Assembly (NCBI GenBank): GCA_029339195.1
Contig: JAPTJF010000195.1
Span: 41,376 to 105,375 of the forward strand
Origin: Micractinium sp. NFX-FRZ
Lineage: Eukaryota; Chlorophyta; Trebouxiophyceae; Chlorellales; Chlorellaceae
Direction: 5' to 3'
DNA length: 64,000 bases
Shown here piece after piece: positions 1 through 60,944 of this stretch. The notes beneath the pieces are model-generated. The model saw only the letters and a list, made by a program, of their open reading frames with translations, searched no databases and was not told where the DNA came from. Each line of letters starts with the position of its first letter. The first letter of the stretch is position 1. The position numbers were made by a program, and so were the translations under genes.

Positions 1-3000
1 AGGGACGTGTCTGCGAGGGCTTCAGCGCTGGTGATGCTCCCACTGCCTGCGGCCGCCCCTGCCCTCCTGCCCCCTCTTGTCTCGACCTGCCCTGTATTCA
101 AATGTTCATCAATGCTGTTGTTCTTACACCGCCCACACTAGGGCACCTCCTCTCTCTGCCTGGCTCGCCTCGGTTCTCCCTACTGCCCGCCCAACCGCCC
201 CTCCCACACGCAGATGGCTACGGCCGCATGGCAGGCAAGCCCGCCCTGACGCTCCTGCACCTGGGGCCGGGGCTGGCCAACGCGCTGGCCAACCTGCACA
301 ACGCGCGGCGGGCGGGCACGCCGCTCGTCAACCTCGTGGGTGGGTGGGTGGGTGGTGAGGTGGGTGGGCAGTAGGTGAGGTAGGCGGTAGGTGAGGAGGG
401 TGGGCGGTGGGGCCGGCACGCAGGCGTCAAGGCAGGGCGGCACTGCTGCACAGTGAATGACGCATGGGCAGACAGGGGCAGGCAGGCGCGTGTCAAGCTG
501 CAGCCCCCTGCATGCCCCTCCACCCGGCTGCCATTCTGTGCCAACACACGTACCGCTGCCCTGCTGGTGGCCCCTCCTCTTCCGCAGGTGACATGGCCAC
601 CTGGCACAAGCCCGCCGACCCGCTGCTGGATTCCGACATCCCAGCCCTGGCGGGCGCCGTGAGCGCCCACACCCACGTGTGCCGGCCCGGGGAGGACCTG
701 GGGGCGGCGATGACGGCAGCTGTGGCGGCAGCCACTGGCAGGGGCGCGGGAGACGGAACCGCTGGCGGCAGCGTGGGTGCTAACAACGGCGCCGGTGCTG
801 CCGGGGGAAGCCGAGTGGCCACCCTGGTGGTCCCACACGACCTCTCTTGGGAGCGCAGTGACAGCTGTGGGAGCCCAGCGGGCACAGGTGCGGCCGCCTG
901 CCTCGCAAGCAGCACCAGTGGAGGCACCAATGGCAGCGGCGGCGGCGCCTCCCCAGATGGGCTGCCTGGCGCCCCTCCTGAGCTGCCCCCCGATGTGCAG
1001 CAGTTTGTGCGGGGAGCAGCGGCGGCGCTGCGGGCCTGCCCCCGGGGCAAGGCAGCGCTCTACCTGGGCGGCAGGGCGGCGCTGGCCCAGGGTGCGTGGG
1101 TGTGGGGCGGCATGCATGCATGCATGCGTCAAAAAGTGCGCGGCACAACGCCAGCCTGAAGTGCCGTCGATCAAACCACACCTGCTGGCCTCGTGGTTGT
1201 ACTGTCCCTCCTCTCAGTGCAGCCTCACATCCCGTGTGCCTCTTCCCGACCCCGCCCACCCCTGCGGTGCAGGCGATGCTTTGCTCAACTGCGGGCGCAT
1301 CGCCGCCGCCACAGGCGCCGCACTGTTGTGCGAGAACGCATTTGCTCGGCTGGACCGTGGTGCCGGCCTGCCCAACCTCACCCGCCTGCCCTACTTCCCA
1401 CAGGTGCTTGGGCGGCGGCAGCTGCTGCTTGTACTGCTTGCCAGTGCCTGCCCGTCTGCCTGCCTAACGCTGCCGTCCACTGCCGCTGCTGCCATTTCTC
1501 CCATCCTGCGCCTGCACAGGCTGCCACCGCCGCCTGGGTATCTTATAGCAGCTGACGCCACTGCTGCTGCTGCCAAGTTCCGCACTCATTGCTGCTGCTG
1601 TCGGTGCTGTCACACTTGCAGGATGCCGCCGCCGCCCTGGCTCCCTTTGAGCTGCTGCTGCTGCTGGATGCGCGGCGCCCGGTGGCCAACTTTGGGTACG
1701 ACGGGGCACCCAGCCAGCTGGTGGCCCTGCCGGTGAGTGATTAAAAACACCTGGCGCAGCCGGGGGAGCGATGCATGGGAACTGCACTGTGCCGCCAAAC
1801 CATCTTAGCACGCCAGCTGCTTCAAGAGAGGCACTCACACGTGCCCACGCTCCGCATTGCTCCCAGGACGAGGCGGTGTGGGAGTTTGACAGCTGGAGCG
1901 TGGACCTGCCTGCGGCGCTGGCTTTGCTGGCTGCGGAAGTGGGCGGCACCGCCATACGGCCAGGCATCAACTGCGGCGGCGCCTTCTGCCCAGCCTCCCG
2001 CCCCGCGGTCCCGGCGGGCCGCCTGACAGCCGCCACGCTGTGCCAGGCGGTGGCGGCACTACAGCCGCCAGGTGTGCACGCCCACCCCTCCCTGCCTTGC
2101 ATTCCTGTGGGCATCCGCACCACGACTGTGGTCCGGGCTGCATGCAATCCATCCCACGCGAGCAGGTTACTCACCACCACCACCACCACCCAGTGCTGCC
2201 CTCCTGCTTTGCGCCCGCACCCCCCGGTACTCTGCCCCCTTCCTCTCCATGTCGTCAATTGGTACCACAGGCGCAGCAAGTCCTGCTTCCCTGGGTCCCT
2301 GCTCGCTGTTCCTATCAACTTTCGTTTGCTGCCTCCCTCCCTCCCCGGCAGGCGCCATCATTGTTGACGAGTCCCTCACCAGCGGCACCTCCTACTTCCC
2401 CCTCAGCCGCGGCTGCCCGCCCTTCAGCCACCTCACACTGACGGGTGGGCGGGGCGCGCTGGTGGGGTGGGCCGGACGAGCTTTACCTTGGTGCTGCAGG
2501 CAGGGAGTCGGCCAGTGTGGCCAGACCTGGCTGGCTGTGTTGCATCCCTGCTTCTGGCACGCACCTTCCGGGCAGCTCAGCCCTGCCTGCTGCTCACACG
2601 CTTTCCGCCGGTCCTGAGCTGCGCATGTGCCGCCCCCTCCTTGCAGGCGGCGCCATTGGTGCCGGCATCCCAATGGCGGTGGGCGCCGCCATTGCCTGCC
2701 CCGACCGCGTGGTCATCAACCTGCAGGTGAGGGTGTGAGCTGTCTGCGGCTGTCTGTATGCTGAATCTGGGGTTTTGTGGCTGATGGGCGAGTGGAGAGG
2801 AGGGTAGTTTGCTGGTGGGGTGGCGCGGGCAGTGTCCCGCCTTGACAGCGCCGTCACCAACCTGCAGGTGGGCGGGGAGTGTTGGGTTTCGTTGACTGGC
2901 GCAGCGGCCAGCATGTGTGTGCTGCTGGGTGGGGTCATGGCGGCGTTGTGGACCTGCGGGTGCAGGGGAGGGTGCGTGGCGACCTGAGGGGAGGCGGGTG

Positions 3001-4105
3001 AGGCAGTGCAACCTTGGCATGCCAGCGCTGGTGCAAGGTAATGGATGCACAGCGTGCAGTGCGCTGCGCCCACGCCACGCCTGATTGCACCTGGCATCCC
3101 TGGGCACCCACCCACCTGGGGGCTGCAGGCGGACGGCAGCGGCATGTACAGCCTGCAGGGGCTGTGGACGCAGGCGCGGGAGGGGCTCCGGGTGGTGACC
3201 ATCATCTGCGCCAACCGGGCCTACTCCATCCTCAAGGTGAGGGGGCGGTGGAGGGGTGGGATGGTGATGGCATGGAGCGTGCCTGCCTGCATGGCACACG
3301 CACTGGGGGTCCCCAACTCGAGCGCGGATTGCATCGACGGCAAAGGTGTGCTGCCGCGTGGTGCCCGTGTCTCACTGCTGCTGCCCCATCTTCCCGTGGC
3401 AGGTGGAGATGGCTCGGGAGAGGATCACTCCCAGGTGCGGCGCAGCCCTGCTGCGAAGCTTAGTGTTCGGGGGGTGGGAGTATGCATGTGGTGAAGCCTC
3501 GCGAGTCTATTCACCTGTGGAGTGCATAGGCCCTCTGGCTCCAACCGCACACCTGCCTTCTCCGCTCCTTCCCTTCCCTTCCCTGCCCGCCTGCCTGCCT
3601 GCAGCAACGGCAAGGCGGCACGGGGGCTCACGGAGATCGGCTCCCCCGCCATCAGCTGGGTCGCGCTGGCACAGGTGGGCGGGCACCCGTGGGAGGCAGA
3701 CATGCAATGCGACTACGCTACCTGCCGCTGTGCTTGAAGTGCTGTGGTGGGGCGACAATCACAGCGTGCACGCCGAGCACGAGTGCCCGGGCGTGATTTC
3801 TCAGGAAGGGGAGATGCAGGCCCGCCTGCACCTGGGTTAGATTGCCTGCAACTGCTGCAGCTGCTCCTGCCGCCGCCCGCCTGCCTGCCTGCCCGCCCGC
3901 TGGGTGCGCAGGTTGACACCGGTTGTGCAAGAACCCCGGTCATCCTTCACACACAACTGGCCACCCTGCGCCGCCCAACCTGCCCCTCCCCCTGCAGGGC
4001 ATGGGGGTGGCCGCCTGCCAGGCGCGCACCTGCGAGGAGCTGGCGGCGGCGCTGGCGGCCGCCCTGGAGCGCCAGGGGCCCTCGCTCATCGAGGCGCTGC
4101 TGTGA
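1..4105 (+). CDS. TPP-dependent acetolactate-synthase-like enzyme (5' end outside window)
   Basis: Visible exons are 214-339, 588-1091, 1273-1403, 1622-1732, 1867-2071, 2352-2444, 2647-2726, 3129-3236, 3403-3434, 3605-3674 and 3998-4105, giving about 521 residues. Roughly the first 75 residues of a normal ~600-residue member, including the N-terminal catalytic Glu region, lie upstream. The first visible exon reads [16 protein letters not shown], then [16 protein letters not shown], typical of the TPP PYR domain. The C-terminal PP domain has [20 protein letters not shown] followed by [10 protein letters not shown], the cofactor/Mg binding signature; the first Gly of GDG is Ala, which I recall from the bacterial IlvB-like subgroup. 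The protein ends in [10 protein letters not shown]. It resembles bacterial acetolactate-synthase-like or benzoylformate-decarboxylase-like enzymes more than plastid AHAS, so its substrate is unknown. The long stretch in exon 588-1091 rich in Gly/Ala/Ser is an algal insertion. Confidence 0.85.
2831..2874 (+). repeat. Intronic decayed copy of exon end plus 5' splice site
   Basis: The segment repeats the end of the exon at 2647-2726 with its donor. Both share CAACCTGCAGGTG preceded by a similar CCCG...CCGTC/GTC context. It sits about 130 bases downstream in the following intron, in the same orientation. Confidence 0.65.
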
Positions 4106-5009
4106 GCCCAGTGCTGCGGCTGTGGGCAGGAGGGCGCTGGCGTAAGCAACAGCGGAACCATTATTTGCTCTCCGATCACATCACCTACTGATTTCCTCTG
4201 GGATGCCTGAGTACCCAGATCAGCAATGACCCGCCCTCGACAATGTCTCGACTCTACCGTGGCACAAAGGCAATGGCATACAGTGGTGCTCAGTGGTGCT
4301 CGGCCAACTGATCCAGTGCCAACTGCCGTTGACATGACATGGCGGGGTCAGGTGGAGGTGACATGGAGGTGACGTGGCAGTCATTTACACTCTGGAGCAG
4401 GAAGGGGACAGGGGGCAACAACACAGGGCGACGGCGGCGGGGAAGGCAGGCCGGCAGCTTGACACTTGGGGGACTCTCGGGAGCGCCGCTCGTCACAAAT
4501 ATATGTGTGGGGTGGGGGAGAGCATACATGAAAACTGGGTGAGGGGAGGGGGAAGTGCCACTGGACAGTGTGGTGGGAGGCGGGCCACAGGGTTGACTGG
4601 GAGGGGCCTCAACTAGTGTAGGGCGGGCAACTAGTTGCGGGCGACTAGTTGCGGGCGACTAGTTGCGGGCGGCTGGGCTGGCAGCTGGCCTTTTGGCGAG
4701 CTGTCCTCAGCACAGGGCGCCTAACCCACAACGTGTGGTGTTTTGTGGGTGCTTCACAGCCGCTCATGGCCTGGCTAGCCGTGCCCCGGGTGGGGTGCAG
4801 ACGTGGTAGGGTGTGGTGCTTCCGGCAGGCCGCACGTGCAGCGCCCGCTCTCTCAGCTGCGGGTCGCGGGGCGCACACTGCTGCGACCCGCCCGGGGCCA
4901 GCGCAAAGCAACGAGCTGCTGGGCCTTTGCCTCAACCTCGAGCGCCTCATGCCAGGCCTCTTCCTCAGGCCGCAGCGGCAGCTGAGGGCAGGCCTAGTAT
5001 GTCCTATGC
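4106..5009. other. Convergent intergenic region with a short tandem repeat
   Basis: This lies between the 3' ends of the TPP enzyme gene (+) and OTC (-). No gene is supported. It contains a 14-base tandem repeat at 4623-4672, and a TTACA (TGTAA on the minus strand) near 4384 that could serve OTC but is far from its stop. Confidence 0.6.
4623..4672. repeat. 14-base tandem repeat
   Basis: The unit CTAGTTGCGGGCGA occurs about three times in a row, starting at 4631, 4645 and 4659, with degenerate flanks. Each unit holds the palindrome AACTAGTT or its edge. Confidence 0.9.
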
Positions 5010-9573
<4,564 letters not shown>

Positions 9574-14000: not shown

Positions 14001-15310
14001 CGCTTGGGTGTGGGCAAGCTGCTCCTGCCGGCGAGACGTGGACAAGGGGATGTATGTTGAGGCATTATGTTTGGTTTGGGCATGACGTGCGCGTGTGTCT
14101 GGGTGGATGTGATGTGCGCGTCCCCCTGGGATGGCCGGCGGCTGCAGGAGTGGCGGTGCAGCCCTGTGGAATGTGGGGTTGACGGTGGATGCACACTCAG
14201 TGCTAAAATGTAACAAATGTAATAAAAAGCCGGGCCCCACTCTTGTGCAAGCTGTCCGCACCTCAGCCTTGCCTCCCGCCCCGCCTCGCCCGCTCTTCAA
14301 ACTGCCCCCTGCAGATGCGCTTCTGCCGCCAGCTGCCCACCCTGGTGGCCTGCTTCCTGCTCAACATGAAGGTCATCCCCGAGGTGTGCCGCCGCTACCA
14401 CGCACACATGGACCCGCAGCACTGCGCAGGTGACAGAGGGGAAGGGTGGGTCGCGGCTGTGGGGCGGTGGGCAGTGGGGGAGCGTACGTACCTGAAGCCT
14501 GCCGCCGCTGCCAGGCACAGGTGCGGCCCGCAGCGCTGTGCCGATGCAAGCGATGGAATCAAGGGTGTCCGGTGGGGTGTTGAGAAGCATGGGTTCCCCA
14601 AGCCATGCCACTGCTGCCACGCGCACCCGGACCCGCAGCGCTGGGCAGGCACAGTGCAGGCAAGTCAGGGGTGTGGTGGGGTAGGGTGATGGGCAGCGGG
14701 GTCACGCAGAGGCCTGCTGGTACTGCCTGCCTGCCTGCCTGCCCACCCGTCTGCCGCTCCCAACTGCACCGCAGCGCTGCGTAGGTTCAGGTGTGTGCGT
14801 ATGCGCAGGGCAGGCTGCGCGGCGGAGCGATTGTAAACATGGGGCTGCCTGCCGGGCTCCCCACCCCGCTCCCGTGCCACACCCCCATCTGCACTCACTA
14901 CCTGCCCACACATTCCGCGCCCCTGGCCGTGCCTCGCACATGTCCCCCTCCCACCCCCCGCCGGCCGCTCCCCGCCCTGCCCCTCCCCGCCTGCAGCCTC
15001 CGGCTTCATCCGCGGCGTCCTGCTGCTCCTCATACCGCTGGTGGTGCTCTACCTGCTGGAGCTGCGCATGCGCCGCAACTGGCTGGTGCGCCGGCACATG
15101 GAGGCAGTGGAGGCAGAGGCGGAGGCAGAGGCAGCGGTGGAGGCAGAGGCCGAGCGCCTGCTGCGCCAGCAGAGGGTGCAGGAGCGGCGCGCGCTGGCCA
15201 GGGTCGCGCGGCAGCGGAGCGGCGCGGGGGCTTTGGGGGCGGGCGGCAGCGGTACCGCTGGCGAGCACAGCGTGGCCTCTGGGAGCAGGTTGGCGGGTGC
15301 TCTCGGGTGA
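11069..15310 (+). CDS. Large multi-pass membrane protein with possible GAF-like N-terminal region
   Basis: I do not recognise this gene. Exons are 11069-12712, 13156-13313, 13505-13604, 13815-13880, 14315-14429 and 14997-15310, about 798 residues. Residues ~30-250 have a pattern that may be a divergent GAF fold: helix, YLALAVWG strand, then SSLVGAAMLAGRPQVF, DFLCLPFKA and LAAALLLG. This is followed by a Ser run, a helix (MRSLATLAAALARHAQQ) and a long acidic and Ala-rich linker. The C-terminal ~250 residues hold about five hydrophobic helices, for example SLILLSILVLLSK, LFWLVAGVLTLPLAALL, VLVVFFTAALLY and GVLLLLIPLVVLYLLEL, then a charged Glu/Ala/Arg coiled-coil tail. The first exon stays open past its splice site, but the next exons are needed for the membrane part. 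TGTAA lies 37 bases after the stop. Confidence 0.7.
13951..13999. repeat. GT-rich microsatellite in intron
   Basis: An imperfect (GT)n run interrupted by GC lies in the intron after exon 4 of the membrane protein gene. Confidence 0.8.
14498..14790 (+). repeat. Three decayed copies of an exon end plus donor in one intron
   Basis: The end of the exon at 14315-14429 (…GACCCGCAGCACTGCGCAGGT) is echoed at 14498-14545, 14598-14660 and 14745-14790. The copies share GGCCCGCAGCGCTG, GGACCCGCAGCGCTGGGCAGG and CACCGCAGCGCTGCGTAGG respectively. All are in the same orientation. Confidence 0.75.
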
Positions 15311-15346
15311 TGCTGCGCCAATGTACTTCTTTTGCTTCTGCATGCC

Positions 15347-15351
15347 TGTAA
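15347..15351 (+). terminator. TGTAA poly(A)-like signal
   Basis: TGTAA, the usual chlorophyte poly(A) motif, lies 37 bases after the stop codon of the membrane protein gene. Confidence 0.6.
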
Positions 15352-16143: not shown

Positions 16144-16148
16144 TTACA
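16144..16148 (-). terminator. TGTAA poly(A)-like signal
   Basis: TGTAA on the minus strand, 139 bases downstream of the PTH2 stop codon. Confidence 0.5.
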
Positions 16149-16286
16149 CGGTTGTTGAGGTGTCAGTTAAGTGGCAGCGCTCGCTGTGGCAGCGCTGGCG
16201 GCACCTTGTCGCCTGTCCAAGGCTGCATCTCCTGCTCCGCACACACCATCCGGCAGCGATAGCACTGCCACACCCTTGACCCCGCC

Positions 16287-20739: not shown

Positions 20740-20779
20740 GAGGCGCAGGCCAGTGCATTGCAATGGTCTGGGCACACCA

Positions 20780-20784
20780 TGTAA
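20780..20784 (+). terminator. TGTAA poly(A)-like signal
   Basis: TGTAA, 40 bases downstream of the WDR89-like stop codon. Confidence 0.6.
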
Positions 20785-21030: not shown

Positions 21031-23751
21031 ATGCAGACCGCCGTGCGTGCGCCCTTCTGTGCCGCGCCCTCTCGGGTGCTGGCCAGCCGCCAATGCGCGT
21101 CCCCCGCAGCCTTCCACCGGGCGGCGGTGGTGCCTCGTCGGCGCGCTTCTAGACTGTGCCGGGCCGCCGCAGAGGGCGAGCCTATGCCTGAGAAGGAGAC
21201 CACCTTTGCTCTGGTGCGACATGCGGGCCTTCCGGTAGTGCCTGCTTGGGGACTGGGTGGTGGGTGGCGCCGCTGGCGGCGGCAGCGGTGGCGGCTGTAG
21301 GCTCCAGCCTTTACTACCAACGCGCTGCTGCCTGGTACCTGCCTGCCAGACCACCCCATGCCCTTGTATGAGGCTGCAAGCCGTTTTGTGTGGTGTCGCA
21401 GCACCAGCGGCTGGGTCGGCCGATTGCCAGCCGCCACGTCGGTGGGCCCACGCCTCGGTGCCACCGCTGCCTGCATTCCTACCCACCCCCTGACATTCTC
21501 ACCGCACCACCGCCCGCCTCCCTGTTTGCTCCCCATGCAGGCCCCCTCCAAGCCCAAGTCCCCCACCGGCGAGATGGCGGCCTACTACCTGCAGATGTGA
21601 GCGGGACACGCTGCATGCACCTTGTTCGCCCCTGCCTGCCCGCCTGCCTGCCGTCCTCCAACAGACAGATCCGCTTCGTCATCAGGCGCACCTCTTGACC
21701 CGCCAATTGGCTTTGCCCATGTGCCGCGCTGCACGCAGCCCCGCCTGTTCTGTGCTGCGATGGGCCCCCAGGCCTTCAAGCCTCAAACCTCTTTCCACCC
21801 GTGTGCTGCTGACATCACCCCCCTGCTGCTGTTGTGCTCGCGCCAGATGCAGGCAGCCTCGCTAGGTGGCTACCTGCTTTCCTTGCATGCCAACCATTCA
21901 TTGACATGGTGATTGACAGTGGTTGATTTCGCTGCGAAATGCTCCTTCCCCCGCCTGCAGGCAGCCTCACCTGTTCCGCGAGGCGGTGGCCACCTCCTTC
22001 CAGCGCATCGTCGACGCGCGCGCCCAGGAGGCCAGCCAGGAGCAGGCTGCGCAGGACGCCGCCGCCGCTGCGGACCAGGGGAAGCAGGGCAGCGGGGAGG
22101 CTGAGCTGGTGCTGTACCGGCGCATGGCCGAGGTGAAGCGCATGGAGCAGATGGCGGCGATTGAGGACCTCATGTATGTGTGCATACTGGAGAAGTTCCA
22201 GGTGGGGCAGCCTGCCTCAGCCAGGACAAGTGTGAGGAACAGCATGCAGTGTGTGGGTGTGTGTTGGTGTGCTGTGTTTTGTTTGTGGGGATGGCGCGGG
22301 GCGTTTGTTTGTTCATGCGGGGCTGGCTCTGAGGGTCCACGGGAGGGCCTGCAGGGGTGCGGCAAAGGGCGGATGGGTGCAGTGCGCAGGCGAGGTGCGG
22401 GTGCAGTGCGCTGCAATGTGATGTCATGTGCGGCGGCAGGGGGTGTAGGGTGTGACCAACGTCGCGTGGCTCATGCCGGCGCCGCGCTGCATGCCATGGC
22501 AGCCCGCATTGCCCTGCTCTGCCTCAGCCCGTTTGCCCCTCATGCTCTCCACCTGGCATGACGTTGGCGGGCAACATGCTGCGCTGCCCCGTGTTGAGCC
22601 GATCATAGTGTGTGCCCCGGCTGCCGCCCTCCCTTCTCTCACAGCGCCTCTCTCACCCCCCCCACCCCCCCCACCCACATTTGTTCCCCTGCCCCCGCCC
22701 CGCCCCCCGCAGGAGATTGGCGTGGACATGCTGCCGCGGGTGGAGCCGATTGAGGAGAGCGCGGCCACGCTGCGCGCGCTGACCGAGGGTGTGCACAGCC
22801 GCGAGGCAATCGACATGGTGAAGGAACATGTGCTGGCGGTGCTGGGTCCCGCCTCCATGGCCTTTAGCAACACGCAGATCAAGATGAGCAAGCTGCAGGC
22901 GGCCCAGGTGTATGCCGCCTCCATCATGTTTGGCTACTTCCTGAGGCGCGTGGACAAGCGCTTCCAGCTGGCCAGCCAGGTGAGGCCGGCCCCCTCCCAT
23001 GGACTTGCCTCTCTGTTTGTGTTGAGTGGAGGAGGTTATGATGGGTGTAGGGGCGAGACGGGTGGACTGGACCAGCGGTTGTAGGGCGCGTTGGCTGGCG
23101 CCGGATGGGGGCGGTGTGGTTGGCACGGCAATGGGCGGGCAAGGGGGGCCAGGGTGCAGGCCTGGCACGGGCAGCAGCATTCGGTGGCATCGCTTTGCCG
23201 CCGCCAGCGCCACACGCATTTGTCAAACAAGAGCAGGCTGCCATCTGCTATTCCTGAACATGCTCCCGCCCCCTCCCCCACCTTGCCCCTCCTCCTGCAG
23301 CTGGGCATGCTGCCTGCCAGCCGGGAGGACGCGGTGGCGCGCCTGGAGCGCCTCTTCTCGCAGGTGGGTGGGTGGGCGCTTCTTTTTGTTGGGGGGCACT
23401 CATGGGGTGGGAGGGCACGCATGGGGTGGGAACTCGTGGTGCGGCCGGGCTGGCGCAGGCCTGGATGCGGCTGCCAGCTGCGCCCAGCTGTGTCTGGCAC
23501 CCTGCCGGGCACGCTTGCCCGCCCTCCCCGCCCCACCACGCTCCCAGCCTGCGTGCCTGTGCTGCTGCCATGCCCCAGCCATCCGTGACCTCTCCCCCAC
23601 TGCAATCACCCGCTCCCCTGCACCACCCTCGTTCAACCGCTACCCTGCCTCTGCAGGCCGACGCCGTTGAGGCCACCTCGGACCCCGACACCGCGCAGCC
23701 GTTGGAGCCCTCCGACCCCGACCGCCCCTCTTCCTCCGCTGCCGCCAGCAC

Positions 23752-43328: not shown

Positions 43329-46300
43329 CTATTGCTCCGCCCCCGTATCTCCCGCCGCTGCCGCTATCGCCGCTGCTGCCGCGCCGCCCGCTGCTGCCGC
43401 CGCCACGTCGGGCGCATGCTGCTGCACATATGCCGCCACGCCACCCGCCGAAATGGTGTCCCACACTGACACCGTCCCCTTGGCACCGCCCGCAGCCAGC
43501 ACCAGCGGCGCATCGCTGCAGAGGTAGAGGGCAGGCAGGCGGGCGAGGGTGGGTGTGGTTGTTGGGCGGCAGTTGCTGTTGGGCGGAGCAGCTTCCAACG
43601 CCAACCGACACGCTGGCCAACAACCCAAATCAGGTTCAAGCCACCGAACACATAGCCCCACAACACGCTCTTGTTCTTTCCCTCTGCCGCATGCTGCCCT
43701 CCTTTCCATCCATTCCCACGCCCTGCGCAGCGCACCAAGCCACATGCCCCCTTCTGCCTCAGCAACCTCCAACCTCCCGCTGGCTCCGCCAGTGCCCTAT
43801 CTATCTATCTATCTGCACAAAAAAACATGTTCAGTGTGCCTGCAGACATGTGCATCCTACCTTAGCCTGCAATGCATCACGGTTGTAAGCACACCCCACA
43901 AACCGACACGGCCGTATTACGTTAAACCAAACCCCACGAACCAACACGGCTGTATTACGTTAAACCACACCCCTCGAACCTGCAGTACGCCATGGAGAAG
44001 ACGGCCCCGGTGTTGAGGCTCTGGCTGGCCAGCAGCGTGGGCTTGTTGCCCTCCATGCTCCACACCTTGACCTGCAAACAAGAGCAAGGGCGGGGGTAAG
44101 GCAAACAAAGTGGGGCGCACACACAGGGGCAGGGCGGGCAGGCACTGGTGGAGCACAGCTGAGCAATACGCTCGTCTGGGCAGCACACCATCGTGCATGC
44201 CGTCGCCAAGTCGGCTCCGTTACACAAGCTCGTTTGCCTGCCGTCCCCACCTTGTCCCGCTAGCTAAACACACCACTCTGCCACGCCCTGCGCATGCAGC
44301 CCCACCTCGGGCCTGCCATTGGCTCCCTGCTCGCTCGTGCTGCTCCTGCCACTTGCAGCACTCGTCCCTCCCAACTGCAGGCACCCTGCCCCATCCCTGC
44401 AACATCACCAACCACCAACCATCACCAAGCCTGCCCGTCCACTCCCCACCTTCTTGTCTGTGGAGGAGGTGGCGAGCAGGCCGGGCACAGCGGGGCAGAA
44501 GCTCAGCGCGCAGGTCGCCTTGTCGTGCGCGCTCAGCCGGTACAGCGGCGCGCTGCCGGCGCCCTGCAGGCGGAGGGGCAGGCGGCAGGCGGCGGGCCAG
44601 GTGAGCAGTGCAGGCAAATGGAATGATGCACGACAGTGGGCGAGAGCACTACAGCCAGCAGCTTCACCGCATGCACCCCACCTCCAGCATAAGCGCCGGC
44701 ACGCAACAACCTGGTCACTTGCACACAGCCAGCAGGCCTCACGCCTCGCCCTAGTCGGTAAACCTTTGCAAACCCGTGGACAGTGGGAAACACGCACACA
44801 CACGCAAGCACACACGCACCTGGCGCGCATCGAACGCCGCCACCACTCCGTCCTCGCTGGCCACCACAAACTGTGTGGGGTGGTGCGGGTCCCAGGCTAT
44901 GGCCTCCACATCAGCGCTCATCGTCCAGCTGGGCACGCTGGGCGCGTCAGGGGTGCGCACATCCAGCTGGGGGCGGGGGTGAGCCAGGGGAGGCAATGAG
45001 GGTTAGTGGGGACTTGGGCAGGGAGGCAGGGTGAGGGCAGGCTGGGGGGAGACGAGGGTGTTGGGGCTCATCCAAGCTGACACGGCCTGGCTGGGCGATG
45101 CCAGGCACAGGAGCGCGCTGCCCAGATCACAGATTGGGTCAGCCACAGCCAGGCAGGCAGGCAGGTAGGCAGGCAGGCTAGACACTGCACTGCACCACAA
45201 CCTGCCAATGCACCACCCCCTAGAACCCTCTCCGCGTCCCCGTCCCCGCCCGCTCACCACGCACGCGCGCTTGTCGAACCCTCCCGACAGCAGCACCGGC
45301 GCCTCTGCCGGGTTCCACGCCACCGCCTGCACCTTGCTGGTGTGGTGCGTCAGCGTGTGCTGGCACGCCTGGGTGGACACGTCCCAGATCTTGACCGTCT
45401 TGTCGGCTGCGGGCCGGGAGTGGAGGGGGTCGTTGTGGGGCAGGAGATTCAGTGGCCGTGAGGACAACACCGGTGTGCAGGGGTGGCCCCTCGCAAGGCA
45501 GGCAGGGGCACCGGCAACCAGTCGGTGCTGCAAGCACACGGGCGGCTCTGCACAGCAAGCCAGCCCATGCCCCACCTATCCTCTTCACCCCGGCCCGCCC
45601 GCTCACCTGACGCCGAGGCCAGCACGTTTCTGAAGGCCCGGTTCCATGCCAGCCCCAGCACAGCATCAGTGTGGCTACCAGGCTTCACCGGCACCTCTGG
45701 TACCCCGCTGGCCCCCTTCTTCTTCTTCTTCTTCTTCTTCTTGCCGCCCTCCTCGCCCGCGCCGCCCTCCCCCTCTGCCGCCGCCTCGGCGCTGCCGCCC
45801 GCCGCTGCTGCGCGTGCTGCCGCATAGTCTGCCCCTCCCAGCGTGGCCAGCGGCTCCACAGCGTCAATGACGTCCATGTCCCACAGCTCAATGCCCGGCT
45901 CAAAGGAGCCCACTGCTGCAATGTTGGCGCGCTCGCGCTGCACAGACGGGGATGAGGGGCAAGGGTGGGCATGGTATGGGGGAGGTGGCAGGCGGGCGGC
46001 TGGAGGGAGCTGCCTCTGCCACGGAAGGGCGGGCAGGCAGTGGCATGCCAGCGGCAGTGCCGCCCTCCTCCATCACACCACCAAAAACACAGGCACCCAG
46101 CTCTTCTTTCAGCAGCACCCCTTCCCTTCTTTCTGCACCACATGTGGCAGCAGTCGCAGCCGCTCAGGCTCCCGACGCCAAGCGCACACGCCCAGCAGGC
46201 GCAGCAGGCTCACCCGTCCAGAGGGGTCGCAGTCGAGCCAGGCCACGGAGAGCGGGAAGGCGGGCAGCATGACCGAGTGGTGCACATACAGATTGGCGGG

Positions 46301-47762
46301 GCCGCGCTCATCTGCCGCCTCGTACACCCACACCTGCAGCGAGCCGAATTGGTTCGCAGGAAGGGGTGGCACCAGGAAGAAGTGGGCTGGATTCAGCAGG
46401 AGCCAGCCTGCCGGCAGCTAGCACATGCCTCTGCTGCAGCACCCAGCCAGCCAGCCTGCCGTCCGGAAACCGCTGCCAACACAGGCAACACACCACACAT
46501 TCGCTTCCAGACACTACTGCTGTGCTGCAGTGCGTCCCAACTGGCCCCACTCCACCCTGCACCCACCTCCAGGTGGCTCAGGTCGTCCTCGTTGCGTGCC
46601 GCCAGTATGAGCAGGTCGTCCTCCCTCAGCCTGAAGGCCTCCGCCTCGCTGTCCGTGTCGCTGTCAGAGTTGCGCTGCAGGAAGGGGTCGGCGGTGGGGT
46701 CGCGGTGGTACGACATGCCTGCCGGGGGTTGGGGAGGGGGAGGGGTACAGGGGAGGCAGGGGTGAGAGCGAGAGGCACGAGGGCAGCAGCACGTACTGGC
46801 AGCATGTACTGGCAGCACGTGCTGAGCAGTGCAAGCAGGTGAGCTGCCTCCCCCTCCAGGCGCCTGCCCTCCCGTCCCCACCATGCACGCCAGCCCATGC
46901 TACCCCCCACCTCCTCATCAATCAGAGCTGCCTCAGTCCCACACCCCGACCTCTCACCCACCCGGGGTGCCTCTGCCCAGGCCACTGCCCACGGTGCTGA
47001 ACTGGCCCTCCCGCCCCCCTGTCCTCCACACACGATACACACAACTCCACCCCCTCGCTCTTCTGCCGCCAAGCACCGGTCAGAGTCGCCTCTGGCCAGG
47101 ATACGCCTGATCACATATAGGCCGTCCAGGCACACCAAGCCCAACAATTCGCTCCCGCCCTCGTTGCAAAGCAAAGAGCAAGGACCTCACCCGGGTTGCC
47201 GCTGCCCAGGAGGCGGGAGATGGCGTCCCCCTCCCCCCCGCTGTCATCATCGTAGTGATCCATGTCCAGCTCAGCCATGGCAGCTGCCAGGCGATCACCC
47301 CCCGCCGTTGCCGCCCCGCTCTCCGCCTGGTTGCTCTTGAGAGCGGCGGCCACAGTGCGCGCGCGTGCCACCGCTGCCGCCTCGTCTTCCATCTCGCTGT
47401 CGCTGCCCTCATCCTGCTCCTCATCCGAGGTGTCCGACCCCTCATCCTGCGGGCGTTGAGTATGGCGGGCGGAGAAGCAACAGGGTGAGGAAGCAGCGCG
47501 TGGCCAGCCGGCAGGCTGGCTGGGTGTGCTCGGCCATAGTGCCGCCTGCCGCCAGTGCTGCCGCCACTCTGCCGCCGCCCGCACCGAGTCGCGCGCCGAA
47601 AGTTCCGCGCGCTTTGCAGCACCCATTCAAGCGCACCGGCTCCTCCTCAGGGCCCTGCTCTGCCACCGCCCGCATGGCTTCAAGCTCCTCCGCCGTGAGC
47701 TCCGCCACTTCGGGCTCCGCCTTGGCGGCGCCCTTGGGAATCCATGCCAGAGCTGAGATCAT
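43329..47762 (-). CDS. PWP1: Periodic tryptophan protein 1, WD40 ribosome-biogenesis factor
   Basis: Exons are 47762-47637, 47446-47191, 46718-46567, 46333-46214, 45937-45607, 45406-45258, 44966-44820, 44563-44450, 44071-43980 and 43515-43329, about 557 residues. The start MISALAWIPKGAAK is the hallmark PWP1 N terminus. An acidic region follows (DEGSDTSDEEQDEGSDSEMED), then NSDSDTDSEAEAFRLREDDLLILAARNEDDLSHLEV, ASFEPGIELWDMDVIDA-type text (SFEPGIELWDMDVIDAVEP), and WD40 blades HTDAVLGLAWN, ADKTVKIWDVST, VQAVAWNPAEAPVLLSGG, VEAIAWDPHHPTQFVVASEDG, KVWSMEGNKP and GTVSVWDTIS. A lysine run of nine residues precedes the first blade, as in other PWP1 proteins. The C terminus is Ala rich. The donor of exon 1 could instead be a few bases downstream; the one chosen keeps frame. 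Confidence 0.93.
43893..43980. repeat. 38-base tandem repeat starting at a PWP1 splice donor
   Basis: Units of period 38 begin at 43893, 43931 and 43969 (ACCCCAC/TCGAACC... ACACGG...GTATTACGTTAAACC). The last partial unit is the 5' splice site of PWP1 exon 9 itself, so each unit carries a copy of the intron start. Confidence 0.9.
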
Positions 47763-52585: not shown

Positions 52586-55500
52586 ATGGAGGCCGCCCTG
52601 AAGGCCTCTGCAGCCGCAGTGAACGAGCTTCGGGACTCTCTTGAAGAGGAGAGCCTCTCGCCGATCGAGGTGGAGGGCTGCCTGGCTCGGTTCACCGTGA
52701 CGGCTGATGATGGCTCCTCATACTCCTTCACCGCCACCTTCGCTGGGCCTGCAATGCCGTCCGCGTCCTCTTTGGCCTGCACCTCCGGCTCTGTGCGCGG
52801 CTTGGCCAAGGCGAATAGCAAGCTGGCGGCCCGCAGCTCACTTTCACGCGCGGTTGCAGCTGCGGGGCGCTGTGTAGCTGTCGACCTGGACTGGGTGACC
52901 GAGGCGGAGGCCGACGGTGCGCCTGCGCCGCCCGCTGCTGAGGGGCGGGGCAGGCGGGAGGGGCCTCGGACTGTCTGGCCAGCCTGTCGCACCGCCTGAC
53001 AACCTTGTAATATTTTGAGAGTGTGTTCGCATCTGCTTGCCGCCTGGACCCTTGCGCCCCAAGTGCTGGGTGCTGCTTCTTTGCGCCTTTGCCAACCGCC
53101 GGCGCCGCCCCGTCCCGCCTCCACGCCGCTGCCTCATGCGCCTGCCCGCAACCCCCACTGCCCCGCAGGCATGGACAGCGACGAGGAGATGGCGGAGGCG
53201 GGGTCCCTGGGCGGCGGGGCCAGCGATGATGAGGGGGAGGATGAGCTGCTGAGGGAGTGGTCCAAGAGGCTGGTCAAGTGAGTAGGAGCGGGACGGGGGC
53301 CCAGGGTGGGTGCTGGGTTGTGAGCGAGGCCTGGTGGGTGCTGCAAGCGATGCCGCAAGCCAAGCACCCAAGAGAGAAGCAATTGCAGAGGCACGGATGC
53401 AGTAGGTGCGCACTGCGCGGAATGAGCGGTTGCGGGGCAGGGCGGGAACGCAACGGGCGCCTTGCCTGCAGACCCACAAATACCGCTCTGCCTTGCACGG
53501 GGCGCCGTGTGCTGGCCCTGCCTGGATCTCGCTGTGATCAGCTGCTTTTGAGCCTGCTGTTTGCCCGCAGGGTGGAGAAGGTTGAGCGTGGCATTGAGGA
53601 GCGGCAGGCCCAGGAGGAGGCGGAGGGCAACCTGGATGCGCTGCAGCAGCGGCAGGTGGGGCGGTGGCAACTGCGGTGCCGGGGGGAAGGTGACGGTTTG
53701 GGGCCGGTAGCGCAGCGGCGCTGGCATCCTCAGTTGCAGGCCATCAGATCTATGCAACCTTGGGTGCTCTTCTCGCTCCCTCCTCTTGCCCAACACATCC
53801 TGGACATGCACGCCGCCTTCTGCTGGCGGAGTCCCCCCCCTTCTTCCCCTCCTCCCTTCTCAACCTCTGTTTCTTTTCCACGGGACACGTGTTGCCCTCC
53901 CCCGCAGATCTTTGACAGCCGCGCCGCCTTCCGCCGGCTCACCAACGAGCTGGAGGAGATTTTCAAGGCGCAGGACTTCAACCTGGTGGGTTGGGGCGCT
54001 TGTTTCTGTGTGTTTTCTGTCTGTCTCTTTACTTTTGTTTCGTCAGTGTTGGGTTTGGGTTGCACTGAGTACGACGAGGCCAGTAGGCATGGCACATGGG
54101 CAGCCCGCATGAGTGTGGGCAACGGTGCAGCAGCATATGGGGCGGCTGCGTGAGGACGCTCCTTGCCGTGCGATGCAAAACCCTGCCAGGTGGGAGTCCC
54201 CGTGCTCTGTGCCCCCCTGCTCCGCCGCCACTTCTTGGCCTACAACTGTTGTCTCCTATGTGCCGCAGGTGGCCGAAGCGGCAGATGAGCCGGATGGCCT
54301 GTACCGCTGGCACGTCATCCTGGGGGGCTTTGGGACCGACTCCCCGCTGGCGCAGGTGGGCGAGGGGGCGCACAACAGATGTTGAGGTCACAGTGTGCCT
54401 GAGTGGGCACATTGGCTGCAGCGCACATCAAGGGGCATGCCAGCGGTAACGCACCTGTCGTCTCTCGGACTGTCCCTATGGCTGCCCCCTCACTTCTCCT
54501 CCCCCTCCCCCACCTGATCAATCTTCCCTGCGCCCCCTGCTGCTGTGCAGGACATGCGCGAGGCGGGGCGCCGCTTTGGCAGCAGCTCGGTGCAGCTGCA
54601 GCTGGTGTTCAAGCGCCCGCTGCACCCCTTCTACCCACCCAGCGTGCAACTGGTCAGCCCCCGCTTCAAGGGGCCCATCCTGAGGTGGGGCGGGCGACAG
54701 CGGGGAGTGGCTGGTGGCAGGGATGGAGGGGGAAAGCAGGAGGGGCTGCTGCCCGGTACGCATCACGGCCGGCTGGCAGGCGTCCAGCAGAGGTGTGCCT
54801 TTGAGGGCTGCAGGCAGGAGGCGGCGTCTCATGACCCTGTCGCAAGCGACAACAGCTGCCTGCCCGCTGCAAGCCCTGCTCCCCTGCGCCGCCGGCCACC
54901 CTCCCTCACCCACCTGTCCCTTCGTCACCCGTTCCCCTCCTTCCCCCGCCCGCAGCGCCGTGGCCTCCCACCCCCTGTTCAGCATCAAGGGGTGGGACCC
55001 CACCCGCTCCGCACGCGACGCCCTGCTGCTGCTCAAGGCATTCCTGGAGGTGGGGCGGCACTGGGCGGGGCTAGGCGGGGCTCGCGGGGCTGGGGGGCTG
55101 GGCCTTGCGGCCTGGTGATGGGGGGCCTTGGGGGCCGGGAATGTTGCCAGGCATCACACCGGGCAGGCCAGGCAGGGGCGCATGACCGCCAGCGCATGCC
55201 ACAAGCTGACCATGCCTGCACATGTGCTGTTCCTCTGCTTGCAAGCTCCTTTTTGCCCGCCGCCCCCGATCCATGTGTAGCCCCTTGACCCTGCTTGACG
55301 GTGGTGTCCCTGTGCACATCTCCCCTCCCTTCACTCGCTCCGTTTCTCCTGCCCCCACCCCCACCCCCACCCCCCACCCCCCGCAGGAACACGCGCGCGT
55401 GGACTTTGACTCAGCTCGCAACGCTGCTGGCCAGTCCGCCGCCTACCTGGGCGTGGAGGTGCTGCTGGCCAAGCTGGAGGCGCTGACGGGGACGGCGGCG

Positions 55501-58500
55501 GCGGCACAGAGCCTGCAGCAGTACCAGGAGATGTACAGGTGGGCGGGTGGGTGGGCGGGTGGCGGAGAGCCCAGGAGGTGGAGGCAGTGGAGAGGAAGGA
55601 GAGGGGGCGTGGGTTCACTGGGGTGGCGTGGTTGTGTGCAGGAGTGGTTAAAGCCAGCCATCAAGAGGAGATGCACACGGTGGCGAGTGGGTTCGGACGG
55701 GGTGGAGGGCATGCAGGCACAGGGAAGGCGCCCACTGGTTCCACACGACCTGAACTGCCCTGTCCTGCCGCCTCCCTGCCCGCCTGCAGGATGCGGGAGC
55801 AGCAGGCGGCCGCGCAGCCGGCGGCGGCTGAGCAGCAGGGTGCGGCACCGGCAGCAGCACCGGCAGCAGCGCCAGCAGCAGCACCAGCAGCACCAGCGCA
55901 GCAGCCGCAGCAGGCGCAGCAGGCGCAGCAGCAGCAGCAGAACCCCGCCAAGAAGCAGAAGTCTGGCAACGGCTCGGCGGCGGCTTGGAAGGCGGGGACG
56001 GGCTACGGCCACAGGTGGGGACAGATTCAACCCGCGCTGGTTGCCTGCTCCTGCAGCCGAGTGCGCCGGGCCGGCCAGACCGCCTGCTCTCAACGGCCGC
56101 CTGCAGCGTGCCGCTCCATGAACCATGCAATCTCACTGCTGCTGTCATCACGCGTACGCCTTGAGCCTGGTGCAGGGGCGGGGACGGCGGCGCTGTGTGG
56201 GACGCCAAGAAGTCGGAGGCGGTGCAGGCGGCGCGTGACCGGGAGCTGGGAGATGTGCTGGAGGGGCTGGCACGGGAGCTCAGCGCCAACCTGGCAGACG
56301 GCGGTGAGTAGCGGTGTGGCAGCATGGGAGGGAAGGAGAGCGGGGGAGGTGGGTGCTGTGCTGGCGGGAGAGGCCAGCGCCAGCCTGTAGACAGAGGTGG
56401 GTGGGTGGCAGGAGGGGTTTGGGTTTTAGCAATGTGAGGCGCAAGCGGGAACCAGGGGCGTCATATTGCTATGCCGCTGCTGGCGCGCGTTTGTGCTCGT
56501 CTTCAACATGCGCCTGCGCCTGCCGCAGCTCATACAGTGGAGGTCTTGCAGGATCCTTCTGCAGCACGCGTCCGCAGGCTCCTCTGAAGGCCAAACCTTC
56601 GTGCCCTGCCCTGCCCTGACCTGACCTTGACCTTGCCCACCTCTCTGCCCCATCTCTCCCCCTGTAGCCCCCCCTGCTGACCTGGCCGACTGCACTGCGG
56701 CCGTCACCAACAGCTGCCTGGCTCCCTACCTGGCGCACCAGCTGTCGGCGGCCTCCTTCCAGGACATGGCGGCCAGGTGGGGTGGGCTTTGTGGGGTGGG
56801 CGGTCTTGCGTTGAACGGATGTTGCAGTATCGGTGGTGGCAGCAGCAGTGTGTAACCAGGACGTGGCCGCCAGGTGGGGGCGCTGCAGTGGGCGGTGTGG
56901 TGTGGTGGTGAGGACGTTGAAAGCAGCTGCGTTGCTTGAGTGGGAGCAGACAGGAGCAGGCGTCCCAAGCTCGCCACTCCGCTGCTTTTTGACAAAGCGA
57001 CGCACACCCAGGCAAACCCACGCACCCGTCTGTCTCAGTCACTACCTTGCTGTTTTTCACCTGCCTGCCTGCCCGCCCGCAGGCGCCAGTTCTACCGCAC
57101 GCTGCTGCAGTGCGCCGAGGCGCTGTGCAGCCCGGCCACCGTCAGCCTGCTGACCTGGCACAGCGTGGACAGCAGCAGGAGCATCGCCTCTGCCGTGGCT
57201 TTGCTAGAGACGCAGGTGGGTGGCACCATGTTAGTCTCCCAGCGCTTTGCAGCAGCTTGACACGCTTTCTTGCGCCCTTGTCTGCTCTGCCCCAGCTGTG
57301 CTTGCGTGCCCCTGCAAGCCCCTCCCCGCCGCGCTGCTACAGGTGTCCCACTTTGTGCGTGTATACAACCAGCAAGCGGCAGCCCCCAACGCGGGGGGCG
57401 CGAGCAGCAGCAAGGGCGTGGAGACGGAGGAGGACAAGGGGGAGATCGAGCTGGCGCACTTCTTGCTGCGGGTGGCGCGCAAGGTGGCCCAGGTGGCGCT
57501 GCCCAGTGGGGGCGCAGGCGGCAGCCCTGGTGCTGATGCGCAGCAGGCGGACGCGGCAGGTGTGCGGTGTGCTGTGTGCTGTGCATGGCGTGCTGTGCGT
57601 GCGGGGCATAGCTCGCTGCTGATGCTTCACTCACATCTAGGGTTTGATGGTGTGGGAGCAGCGGTGCATGGACTGCATACAGTTCTCGTCACGTCGGCTT
57701 CCTCCCCGTCCCCACGCCCCGGTGTAGGCACGTCGGCGGAGGAGATGTACCGCCTGACCCTGTCGCAGTACCGCGTGCGCATCGCCGACGGAGTGTCAGC
57801 AAACCACAGGTGCTGGGGGGTGATGCTGGGCAGGCTTTACTTGATGATAGGCGGTCTTGGCCTGCTGGTTTGTCTGCTTTACGGTCGCTTGTGCCTGCCC
57901 CTGCCTCTTTTGTGCGCCTGCGGTGATGTTCCCCCGCCCACTCCACGCTCAACGCCAAGCATCTTCCCCCCTGCTGCCCCTCCCCGGCCCCGCTGCAGCT
58001 TGAAGGATCTGGCGCGCGCCGAGCTGGTGCAGCCCAAGCTGCGCGCGCGGCGGGTGGGGCGAGAGCTGGCATCCTGCGAGAGCGACCTGCCTGTCAGGTG
58101 GGGCGGGCGGGCCAGGGCGGGCCAGGGCGGTACAGAGGGTGAGGAGGGCAGCGGGCAGTGCGCATTGTTTGCGCGCAGTGCGTCTGTTTCCCCCTGCGTG
58201 CGCGCTGTGTGGCAGCTGCTACCCCACGGGCTGGGAGCAGCGGGGGCAGCGGCTGCGGCCCGCCCAGCACGCCTCGCCTCTCCGCGCCGCCTCCCCAAGG
58301 CTCTGCCGCCTCCCTGCGCGAGCCCTGTCACCATCTCCTCTTGCCCTTTACCAGGCGTGCCTTCCTGTCTGGCTGCCCAATCCCCGCTCCCTGCCCCAAG
58401 CCTGGTACCATCTGGTCCCTCAAGTAACTGCTGACCTGCCCCCCTCCCTGCCTGTGCCTGCCCGCCTTCCCCCCCTCTGCAGCGCCAGCTCCTCCGTGTT

Positions 58501-60944
58501 TGTTGTGGCCGACGAGGCCAACAGCAACCTGTGGAAGGCGATGATCACGGGTGGGCCGGCTGCGGGGGAGCGGGGCCGGGGGGTGGAATGCAGGGTGGGG
58601 GTGGGATGGGAGGCCCACTATCCCTGGGCGCTGTGCACGCAGGCAGAGGTGTGCGCGCCTCAGGTGAGGGCGGTGGCAGGGCGGGGCCTGCTGGCTGGTG
58701 GCGGCTGTCGCCCCGCCCTCCGAGGATGCGCCCACCGTATCCTTTCGCATCCCCTGACTCCTCACACAATTCCCCCACTTCCCCCTCCCCTCGCCTGCCT
58801 GCCCAGGCCCCGAGAACACGCCCTACTGCGGCGGCTGCTTCCTGTTTGACATCTACTTCCCCCCCGACTACCCGCGGGTGCCGCCAAAGGTGCTCATCCG
58901 CACCACGGGCGGCGGCAGCGTGCGGGTGAGTGCGCAACAGTCACACTTTGGGTCTGTGTAGACGGGGCGGACAGGTGGGGCGCAGTGGAAGAAAGGCAGG
59001 GAGGCAATCGCATACACGGGTGTGAGGCAGGATTGGCGCGTATGGCGGGCAGAGCGACAGCAGGAAGGGAGAGGATTGTCGCGGCAGCAGCAGAAGGGCC
59101 AGCGAGGCGGGATCAGCGCGCAGGAGGCAAGGGGCAGCCGTATCCATTTGCAGGCGCCGCTGCACGAGCACCGACCTGCCCTGCTTCATTATACTCCTGC
59201 TGCTCTGCGTTGGCTGACCTGCACTGCGTCCGCCTTCCCCCCCCTCCCTTCCCCTCACTCCCCCTAACTGCCCCCCCCCTCTTCGCCCGCCCCCTCCCTC
59301 TCCCTGCCGCAGTTCAACCCCAACCTGTACCAGGAGGGCAAGGTGTGCCTGAGCCTGCTGGGCACCTGGCAGGCCGGGCGCGGCGAGTCGTGGAGCGCAG
59401 AGTACTCGACGGTGCTGCAGGTCCTCATCTCCATACAGGTGGGGCAGGCAGAGGTGCTACTGTATTGATGGCCTGTTGGGGCTGGGGGGGCTCCAGGTGG
59501 ACACAATGTGGGGCGCCCGCCTACCTTGCTCCCGACCGCCCCGTCTCTCCCCTCCCCCTCTTTACCCCCTCTCCCCACCCTCTCCCGTCCCCTTTTTCCC
59601 CACAGTCGCTCATCCTGGTGGACGAGCCGTGGTACAACGAGCCCGGGTACGTGCTCTTGAATTGAAGTGAATGACTTGCTTCCTGGTCGAGCACTTGCTA
59701 CATTGAGTGCTGCAACTGTTGCAGCCCAACGACACAAATGCAAAGCAGCCCTAAGCGCTGGAACCCTGCACTCCACCCTGATTTGTTCAGATACGAGCAG
59801 CGCTCCGACGACGCCAACAGCCACCGCTACTCGGCGCAGCTCATGTGAGCGGGTGGGGCGGGGAGGTGGGGGGTGGGGCGCAAGCTAGAACGCCCTGGGG
59901 GTGCCCGCAAGGGGATGGTGGACCCAAGGTTGGCAGGGAAGGCCTGCTCTGGCTGCATCGCTCGGCTGCTCCCCCCTCCCCAGTGCTTGTTCCCACCTGC
60001 TGCCTGCCCACCCGGCCCGTTACCCCTGCCCTGTCCCCCCCGCCCGGCCCGGCACCCGCCCGCACCCGTGCAGGCCCCACACCATCAAGTGGGCGATGCT
60101 GGACCAGCTGCAGCACGGCCCCGAGTACTTCCAGCCCATCATCCGGGAGCACTTCAGGTGGGGGGTGGGGCAGGCGGGAGGGAATGGGGGCGCTGGGGTG
60201 ATGGAAACCCATTGGCTGACTGCCAGCCCATCACCAGGGGGCACTTCAGGTCAGAGACGGGCCGCGCTTTGGGAAGGCAGGCGGCGGACCGGGGGTGCGG
60301 AGAAATGTGAGGAGAGGAGGGCGGGGCGGGGCGAGGGAGGAGGCACAGAAGGATCTAGTGGCGGTCAGCTGCAGGAAACCTGCCACACGGCGGCGCGCAC
60401 GGCAGCTCTACATGGTGGAAGCAGGCTCTCGGCTCTTGCCCCTGTGCCGTGTGTACTCTTGCATGGTCTTCTGCGCTGGCTCAGGGATGCGCCACCTGGT
60501 TTGCCCCCGGCTGCGCGGCAATACAACACCTCGGAGAGCCGCCCCTGCACTGGTCTGTGCTGGCACACATACTCTGACCACAAGCCAGGGTGCCCCCTTG
60601 CATTACGGCACATGCAGGCTGCGCGGCGACTACATCCTGGACAACTGCCGCCGCTGGGTGACGTGGTGCCGCGAGAAGGGGCAGGCGGGTGAGTCGCAAT
60701 GCGGTGCTGGGCGGGCGGGCCGCTTGACACGGTGGGGACTTGGGAGCGCAGCAGGACAGTACTGGCGCCGTCCTGATGTGGGCTGCTCACCCACCCACCC
60801 ACCTACCCGCCTGCCCGCCTCCCTCTGTGCCCCACCTGCCCGCCCGCCCGTTGTGCAGCGTCCGCCCGCTCGGTGGAGCAGCAGCTGCCGGCTCTGGAGG
60901 CGGAACTGAAGAAGCTGAAAGCAGCGGATGCTGCGGCAGCATGA
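52586..60944 (+). CDS. BIRC6-type ubiquitin-conjugating enzyme with extra UBC/RWD-like domain
   Basis: Exons, joined in frame for ~903 residues: 52586-52916, 53169-53277, 53571-53655, 53908-53985, 54269-54355, 54551-54684, 54956-55049, 55387-55538, 55790-56014, 56176-56303, 56668-56776, 57083-57215, 57343-57559, 57728-57809, 57999-58097, 58483-58550, 58807-58925, 59313-59438, 59606-59646, 59791-59844, 60074-60157, 60618-60688, 60859-60944. An acidic segment ([11 protein letters not shown]) precedes a first UBC/RWD-like domain at ~180-310 ([58 protein letters not shown]) that has no catalytic Cys. A Gln/Ala linker follows. The second domain, ~690-880, is a full E2 with [37 protein letters not shown] (active Cys ~762, FNPN in place of HPN), [19 protein letters not shown] text and [11 protein letters not shown], all like the C terminus of BIRC6/BRUCE. 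A short coiled coil ends the protein. No BIR domain is seen. Confidence 0.88.
56856..56882 (+). repeat. Intronic decayed copy of exon end plus donor
   Basis: CCAGGACGTGGCCGCCAGGT repeats CCAGGACATGGCGGCCAGGT, the end and donor of the exon at 56668-56776, 97 bases downstream. Confidence 0.9.
60219..60255 (+). repeat. Intronic decayed copy of exon end plus donor
   Basis: CCAGCCCATCACCAGGGGGC then ACTTCAGGT repeats CCAGCCCATCATCCGGGAGC then ACTTCAGGT, the end and donor of the exon at 60074-60157, about 90 bases downstream. Confidence 0.9.

Follow-up and report, generated by a model that had tools for sequence, protein, structure and literature searches.

Gene models and exon-edge copies

The window, by which we mean the whole 64-kb stretch of DNA that was analysed, lies on contig JAPTJF010000195.1 of the green alga Micractinium sp. 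NFX-FRZ and belongs to a 66-Mb assembly of 838 contigs; with other loci of the same genome, ~0.34 Mb of the 66 Mb was examined. Twelve gene models were obtained from the window, and all seven of the predicted proteins that were submitted had Pfam family matches. One predicted protein showed 81% identity to Micractinium tetrahymenae, 77% to Chlorella ohadii and 76% to C. variabilis. Scans of the window with Rfam (at gathering scores) and for tRNA genes gave no match. The features under study are decayed copies of exon edges that lie in the introns next to them: roughly 1 in 12 of the predicted splice junctions carries such a copy of its own edge, usually together with the splice site.

Genes were predicted ab initio with a simple two-strand hidden Markov model, which was built without knowledge of the copies claimed in an earlier, sequence-only reading of the window and was trained on the window and on loci L001-L028, with the exception of L005. 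The model converged on 63 genes with 577 introns (median intron 251 bases, median exon 111 bases) and gave the splice consensus CAG/GTGAG for donors and TGCAG/G for acceptors. The main test set consisted of the 553 introns flanked by exons on both sides (1,106 junctions), 200 junctions from five 10-kb regions outside the training set were held out, and the pooled set comprised 653 introns and 1,306 junctions from the window and own-genome loci. Each junction was represented by a probe of 40 exon and 10 intron bases, which was compared with the remainder of its own intron at a score of at least 28; length-matched introns from other genes and the reverse complement served as controls.

An exon-edge copy was found in the adjoining intron at 105 of the 1,306 predicted junctions, compared with approximately 1.6 expected from the introns of other genes. 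In the 553-intron set 42 donors (0.7 expected) and 46 acceptors (0.65 expected) were matched, and reverse-complement probes matched at no donor and one acceptor. The sequence-only reading had held that the similarity exceeded chance, and the control with introns of other genes bore this out (42 plus 46 observed, 1.35 expected over the 1,106 junctions). The held-out loci carried copies at 17 of 200 junctions (0.2 expected; one by reverse complement), two of these 17 lying in introns predicted to be only 55 and 92 bases long, the models of which may be wrong. Copies were about equally frequent within the window (21 of 246) and outside it (67 of 860 junctions). A scan that used no gene models detected 122 complex local direct repeats at offsets of 25-450, compared with one at 2,025-2,450; 63 of the 122 linked an exon or junction to an intron and 49 were wholly intronic.

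The earlier reading had listed 12 intronic copies, usually 80-130 bases from their originals. All 12 fell within introns of the independent gene model, and for every one the best alignment was with a neighbour at most 500 bases away, which outscored every random 500-base piece of the window (up to 1,000 pieces per interval, pieces near the interval being excluded). Eleven of the intervals contained a copy in the junction scan, the interval at 22572-22610 missed the cut, and ten window junctions beyond the list also passed it. The distance was upheld, with a median of 110 bases for 88 copies, as was the loss of reading frame: the mismatch rate was near-even by codon position (0.117, 0.129 and 0.169) and the offsets had no frame preference (27, 26 and 25 by remainder modulo 3, from 78 of the 88 copies). 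Identity ranged from 73 to 94% in the 21 window copies, a divergence of 6-27%; overall, 7 of the 105 copies were identical, over 14-32 bases. No second full copy was found in the assembly for the three regions tested. A search for alleles or paralogues by which copied introns could be dated found none for three regions and only short weak matches elsewhere.

Anatomy of the copies and length of their introns

Of the 105 copies, 104 were measured again using a longer probe; 81 of these lay at offsets of 60-160 bases, with similar numbers of donors and acceptors (37 and 44). The median lengths in these 81 copies were 31 bases for the exon part, 6 for the intron part, 36 for the copied core and 67 for the spacer; the median offset was 107 bases (interquartile range 97-117, standard deviation 18.6). 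Offsets of 200-240, or two units, were seen in 8 of the 104 copies and offsets below 80 in 11. The offset was independent of the length of the copied core (r = 0.05), and a tie to exon length was rejected (rho = 0.003).

Similarity extended beyond the first alignment on the exon side in 3 of 88 copies (2 in the control) and on the intron side in 23 of 88 (3 in the control). Tiling of whole exons, to a maximum of 200 bases, detected 98 copies, with 9 control probe hits; 75 of the copies came no more than 5 bases short of the junction or passed it, 23 ended 5-40 bases short of it, and none lay wholly more than 40 bases away. A full-unit tandem was plain in some cases, for example at L023:1715-2135, where the spacer was 84% identical. 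By eye, an intron of a MAPK gene (L006:1648-2044) seemed to hold an array of decayed copies of the upstream exon end, one every ~33 bases.

Carrier introns were longer by one whole offset, which supports the earlier suggestion that duplication could lengthen introns. Junction-reaching copies at offsets of 60-160 were present in only 4 of the 312 introns shorter than 250 bases, in 27-39% of introns of 400-600 bases and in only 1 of the 16 above 600 bases. The full length of 78 carrier introns differed from that of 553 non-carriers (Kolmogorov-Smirnov test, p = 1e-14); the difference was lost when the offset was subtracted (p = 0.76) and persisted when only the copied core was subtracted (p = 2e-6), so that pasting of the 36-base core alone was ruled out by the intron lengths. 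The one-unit shift in length is a statistical one, not observed event by event.

GC skew was determined over the 70 bases beyond the copy, for offsets of 70-150. It was 0.250 for donor copies (32 cases), compared with 0.227 at real intron starts and 0.04-0.08 at +110 to +180 of ordinary introns, and -0.416 for acceptor copies (41 cases), compared with -0.402 at real intron ends and -0.02 to -0.09 in ordinary interiors. The spacers were also intron-end-like, with a skew of 0.366 for donors and -0.432 for acceptors. Because both the length minus the offset and the skew were normal, the inner splice site and the rest of the intron look like a complete older intron to which a unit, its spacer intron-like, has been added on the outside, as would be expected of a tandem duplication that crossed the junction. 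As a separate observation, introns without a copy, in the window and the own-genome loci, had a GC skew of +0.23 after donors and -0.40 before acceptors that was nearly gone 110-180 bases inside.

Junction copies in the window, in window coordinates. Listed, claimed in the sequence-only reading; extra, additional junctions that passed the cut.
Original edge	Strand	Gene; intron	Copy	Offset	Identity	Remark
Donor 2682-2729	+	2727-3128	2822-2869	140	78%	Listed
Acceptor 7836-7890	-	Ornithine carbamoyltransferase (OTC); 7871-8196	7916-7970	80	84%	Listed
Acceptor 8260-8311	-	OTC; 8298-8565	8372-8423	112	85%	Listed
Donor 14376-14430	+	14430-14996	14498-14790; best 14595-14649	219 (best)		Listed; array of decayed copies, period about 105-118
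Acceptor-side exon start 22730-22750	+		22572-22610			Listed; marginal, 21 bases, score 27, below cut
Donor 24337-24372	+	24367-24751	24427-24462	90	83%	Listed
Acceptor 33948-33980	-	BRO1/ALIX; 33970-34413	34056-34088	108	85%	Listed
Donor-side exon end 34413-34437	-	BRO1/ALIX; 33970-34413	34330-34354	83	88%	Listed
Acceptor 34955-34983	-	34978-35581	35067-35095	112	86%	Listed
Donor 37444-37503	+	NMT1/THI5-like; 37487-37830	37558-37617	114	79%	Listed
Donor 56759-56782	+	Ubiquitin-conjugating domain; 56777-57082	56856-56879	97	92%	Listed
Donor 60127-60159	+	Ubiquitin-conjugating domain; 60158-60617	60219-60251	92	88%	Listed
Acceptor 1619-1657	+		1517-1555	102	77%	Extra
Donor 9298-9331	-		9070-9103	228	79%	Extra
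Acceptor 21951-21989	+		21724-21762	227	78%	Extra
Donor 31623-31661	-		31484-31522	139	78%	Extra
Donor-side exon end 33448-33477	-		33340-33369	108	83%	Extra
Donor 43946-43980	-		43908-43942	38	91%	Extra
Donor 47188-47210	-		46959-46981	229	91%	Extra
Exon end near donor 47658-47674	-		47567-47583	91	94%	Extra; short, over 17 bases
Acceptor 53905-53938	+		53794-53827	111	76%	Extra; score 28, at cut
Donor 56266-56328	+		56360-56422	94	73%	Extra

A 38-base tandem repeat (2.3 copies, 90%) runs across a donor junction at 43893-43980, a rare example of such an event with a short period. The gene model at the window edge, 214-4105, has six stops when translated from its first base, and either the start or the frame was probably called wrongly; the copies in its introns 1404-1621 and 2727-3128 depend on the exon calls only. 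Distinct from the junction copies are well-preserved tandem repeats at 6434-6583, 29633-29733, 30231-30362 and 30798-30917, with units of 76, 25, 46 and 60 bases and 88-95% matches. Three perfect AACCCTA units, which resemble a plant-type telomere repeat, lie within a predicted intron at 27892-27912.

Origin of the copies

The sequence-only reading had proposed repeated local duplication involving splice junctions, and the junction excess, the held-out loci, the intron lengths and the skew support it. It had described the event as a tandem duplication centred on the junction; duplication across the junction is supported, but similarity over the whole unit is plain in a minority only. We consider that the copies are most likely remnants of ~107-base tandem duplications straddling splice junctions, by which introns were lengthened, and put the probability of this explanation at approximately 0.5. 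Duplication of part of an exon and part of its intron would yield two donors or two acceptors. If the outer site stayed in use the mRNA would be unchanged, the event would be tolerated and the intron would be one unit longer, with the inner copy free to decay without regard to frame. The copied exon part would be recognisable longest, as it is compared with a constrained exon, and the intron part would fade as both copies drift. Duplicates with sites less than ~80 bases apart would probably be purged by competition between the sites; larger duplications would be mutationally rare, and together with the purge this would leave offsets near 107 bases. Repeated duplication would give the arrays at two units.

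Junction copies inside exons were rare (6 of 898 exon edges, with 0.7 expected; the same probes matched 38 plus 38 in introns), and the outer site is therefore nearly always kept in the gene models. Use of the outer site is also supported by protein continuity: the OTC protein aligned gaplessly to chloroplast OTC (8qeu), residues 53-354, across both copied junctions, and the L006 MAPK fragment aligned to MPK6 with gaps of at most one residue across three copied junctions. Spacing below 80 bases was seen in 53 of the 76 repeats interior to the 653 introns, some of which are chance (the inverted control gave 37 unmerged probe hits of 11,900), compared with 11 of 104 junction copies; in the scan without gene models the corresponding figures were 35 of 49 for intronic repeats and 4 of 63 for exon or junction repeats.

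Many of the copied sites scored like splice sites. Donor copies had a median motif score of 5.2 (30 of 31 with GT or GC), compared with 6.2 for real donors and -1.0 for random sequence, and acceptor copies a median of 6.5 (26 of 38 with AG), compared with 7.6 and -3.3. Copies with such splice-like scores would act as decoys if the spliceosome sees them. The sequence-only reading had suggested decoy or alternative splice sites; the good motif scores of many copies are in line with this, but the absence of a frame preference in the offsets is not. Conservation of the decoy sites was rejected: the high-scoring set requires an alignment that reaches the junction, and ascertainment by exon sequence only (58 of 105 copies usable) showed no extra conservation, the identity of the first two intron bases being 0.70 for donors and 0.62 for acceptors.

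Several results weigh against duplication of the whole unit, the rates being taken from simulations with simple mutation models. All of the gene models behind the junction calls are ab initio. Spacer identity was 0.559 in 26 strong hits, compared with 0.66-0.79 simulated under equal-rate neutral decay (p from 8e-4 to 2e-12 over six simulation settings), and at the fitting indel rate 0.70-0.79 was predicted for the intron half (p = 2e-5 or less). Only 10% of alignments reached 10 bases into the intron (47-52% simulated), and the exon part was at least 50 bases long in 5% of copies (34-41% simulated from free breakpoints). The intronic half could in most cases not be aligned any more, only 23 of 72 spacers resembled their counterpart at p≤0.05, whole-unit duplication was plain in a minority, and several high-identity copies, by eye, stopped sharply 2-14 bases into the intron. 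Eighteen interior repeats had offsets of 80-140, and 13 of these were in introns that already carried a junction copy; the remaining 5, in copy-free introns, compare with 69 expected at equal rates and with 18 even if introns change five times faster. Homopolymer runs, richer in spacers than in copies (10% versus 5%), may speed decay, though hardly five-fold. A combination of old ages only and many indels gave a partial fit but was rejected, because the number of indels it needs exceeds what the 0.108 gaps per mismatch seen in the data would support. Because spacer decay is too fast and interior repeats are too rare, a repeat-filler-repeat origin or a junction-linked process keeps a share of the probability.

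Repair of staggered breaks, in which a junction stretch of 25-55 bases is duplicated by fill-in with ~67 bases of unrelated filler between the repeats, is a possible though rather unlikely source of the copies. Sharp copy ends and spacers that in most cases are unlike their counterpart and are not a shared element would be expected from such repair, which by argument rather than simulation would also better explain the few interior repeats, only ~36 bases being repeated. There are precedents in two studies: of 90 neointrons of Daphnia, 55 had internal direct repeats (PMC4202315), and in cultured cells 3' overhangs of 43-50 bases gave rise to tandem duplications (PMC8355091). Foreign filler, however, should not show the intron-end skew that the spacers show, and the offset should grow with repeat length, which it did not (r = 0.05; core length is error-prone and this point is not decisive). 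Nearby inverted matches to the spacer numbered 4 of 78 (3.9 expected), and the 12 direct matches (3.9 expected) include the plain tandem cases. Templating of the spacer from nearby inverted sequence was rejected, since an initial excess of 7 versus 0 of 78 (score of at least 28, 1,500 bases per side, one control) was gone with 30 controls and 1,000 bases. A mobile element or introner in the spacers was likewise rejected: none of the 1,953 pairs among 63 spacers reached a score of 34, and the six pairs that did so in the control set were probably the same intron drawn repeatedly.

We regard as unlikely a process tied to the junction itself, whereby breaks or template switches favour exon-intron borders, for example where a flip in G/C skew would favour R-loops, or selection favours mimics of exon edges near intron ends. 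In favour of such a process, repeats in intron interiors fall several-fold below expectation at this distance, three quarters of the tiled cores (75 of 98) reach the junction with none wholly more than 40 bases off, and the skew shifts abruptly at the border. Survivorship nevertheless accounts for the contact with the junction, as an insertion leaving the junction unduplicated would place its spacer in the exon, and the near-even decay by codon position gave no sign of constraint.

The sequence-only reading had also raised the residue of intron gain by AGGT-site duplication, a model to which the names Rogers and Hellsten are tied in PMC11782384 and PMC4974935. AGGT or CAG is often kept in the copies, but under this model the end of the upstream exon should recur at the 3' end of the intron and the start of the downstream exon at its 5' end, and among the 553 introns each half of this diagnostic pattern occurred just once; moreover, the intron minus one offset is already of normal length and the duplication length does not equal the intron length. 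This origin is very improbable. Least credible is chance similarity or assembly duplication: GC-rich, low-complexity introns do yield many weak matches, but the other-gene controls in the main and held-out sets contradict chance, and the identity of only 73-94% in the window copies, with no second full copy of the three regions, makes an assembly artefact unlikely.

Known systems and significance

In the potato RdRp gene (PMC4974935), as here, a tandem duplication across an intron-exon boundary inherited its splice signals from the parent; that is one case, in which a new intron was created, whereas there are ~100 candidates here, in which an existing intron would be lengthened and the outer sites kept. 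The direct repeats of Daphnia neointrons (PMC4202315) were read as repair footprints and a passive route to longer introns was proposed, but the new introns averaged 77.7 bases and the text examined described no exon-edge copies at a preferred distance. Direct repeats within 80 bases of intron borders (PMC11782384) are similar to the present copies; they are 4-30 bases long and join the 5' and 3' borders of one intron, whereas here a border is joined to a site deeper within its intron. The gain of introns through tandem duplication of exon sequence, in Drosophila and in a review (PMC2891723, PMC3443670), likewise involves small duplications with splice signals, but exon sequence is duplicated to give a new intron of the duplication's size, unlike the lengthening here. 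Breaks with 3' overhangs (PMC8355091) are a plausible molecular source of sub-100-base duplications, although the study is a cell-culture break assay and is not about intron growth.

Searches of one open-access library (subscription papers were outside the scope) found no description of copied exon edges that lie at a preferred distance and occur in a substantial fraction of introns, which is weak evidence of novelty.

Intron lengthening is usually credited to transposons and neutral insertions. We tentatively raise the possibility that introns of this algal lineage are ratcheted to greater length by junction-linked duplication, which has a characteristic step of ~107 bases and leaves strong decoy sites at ~1/12 of junctions. 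The growth step would be measurable, in that the copied edge marks the event, the distance gives the step and the decay the relative age, and, provided that the rate in the sampled parts applies throughout, cases should number many thousands in a single genome. The copies also constitute a natural experiment on how the splicing machinery chooses between two sites that are nearly identical. Finally, the size of the step, together with the rarity of such repeats in intron interiors, poses a testable choice between selection by the spliceosome and breakage at exon borders.

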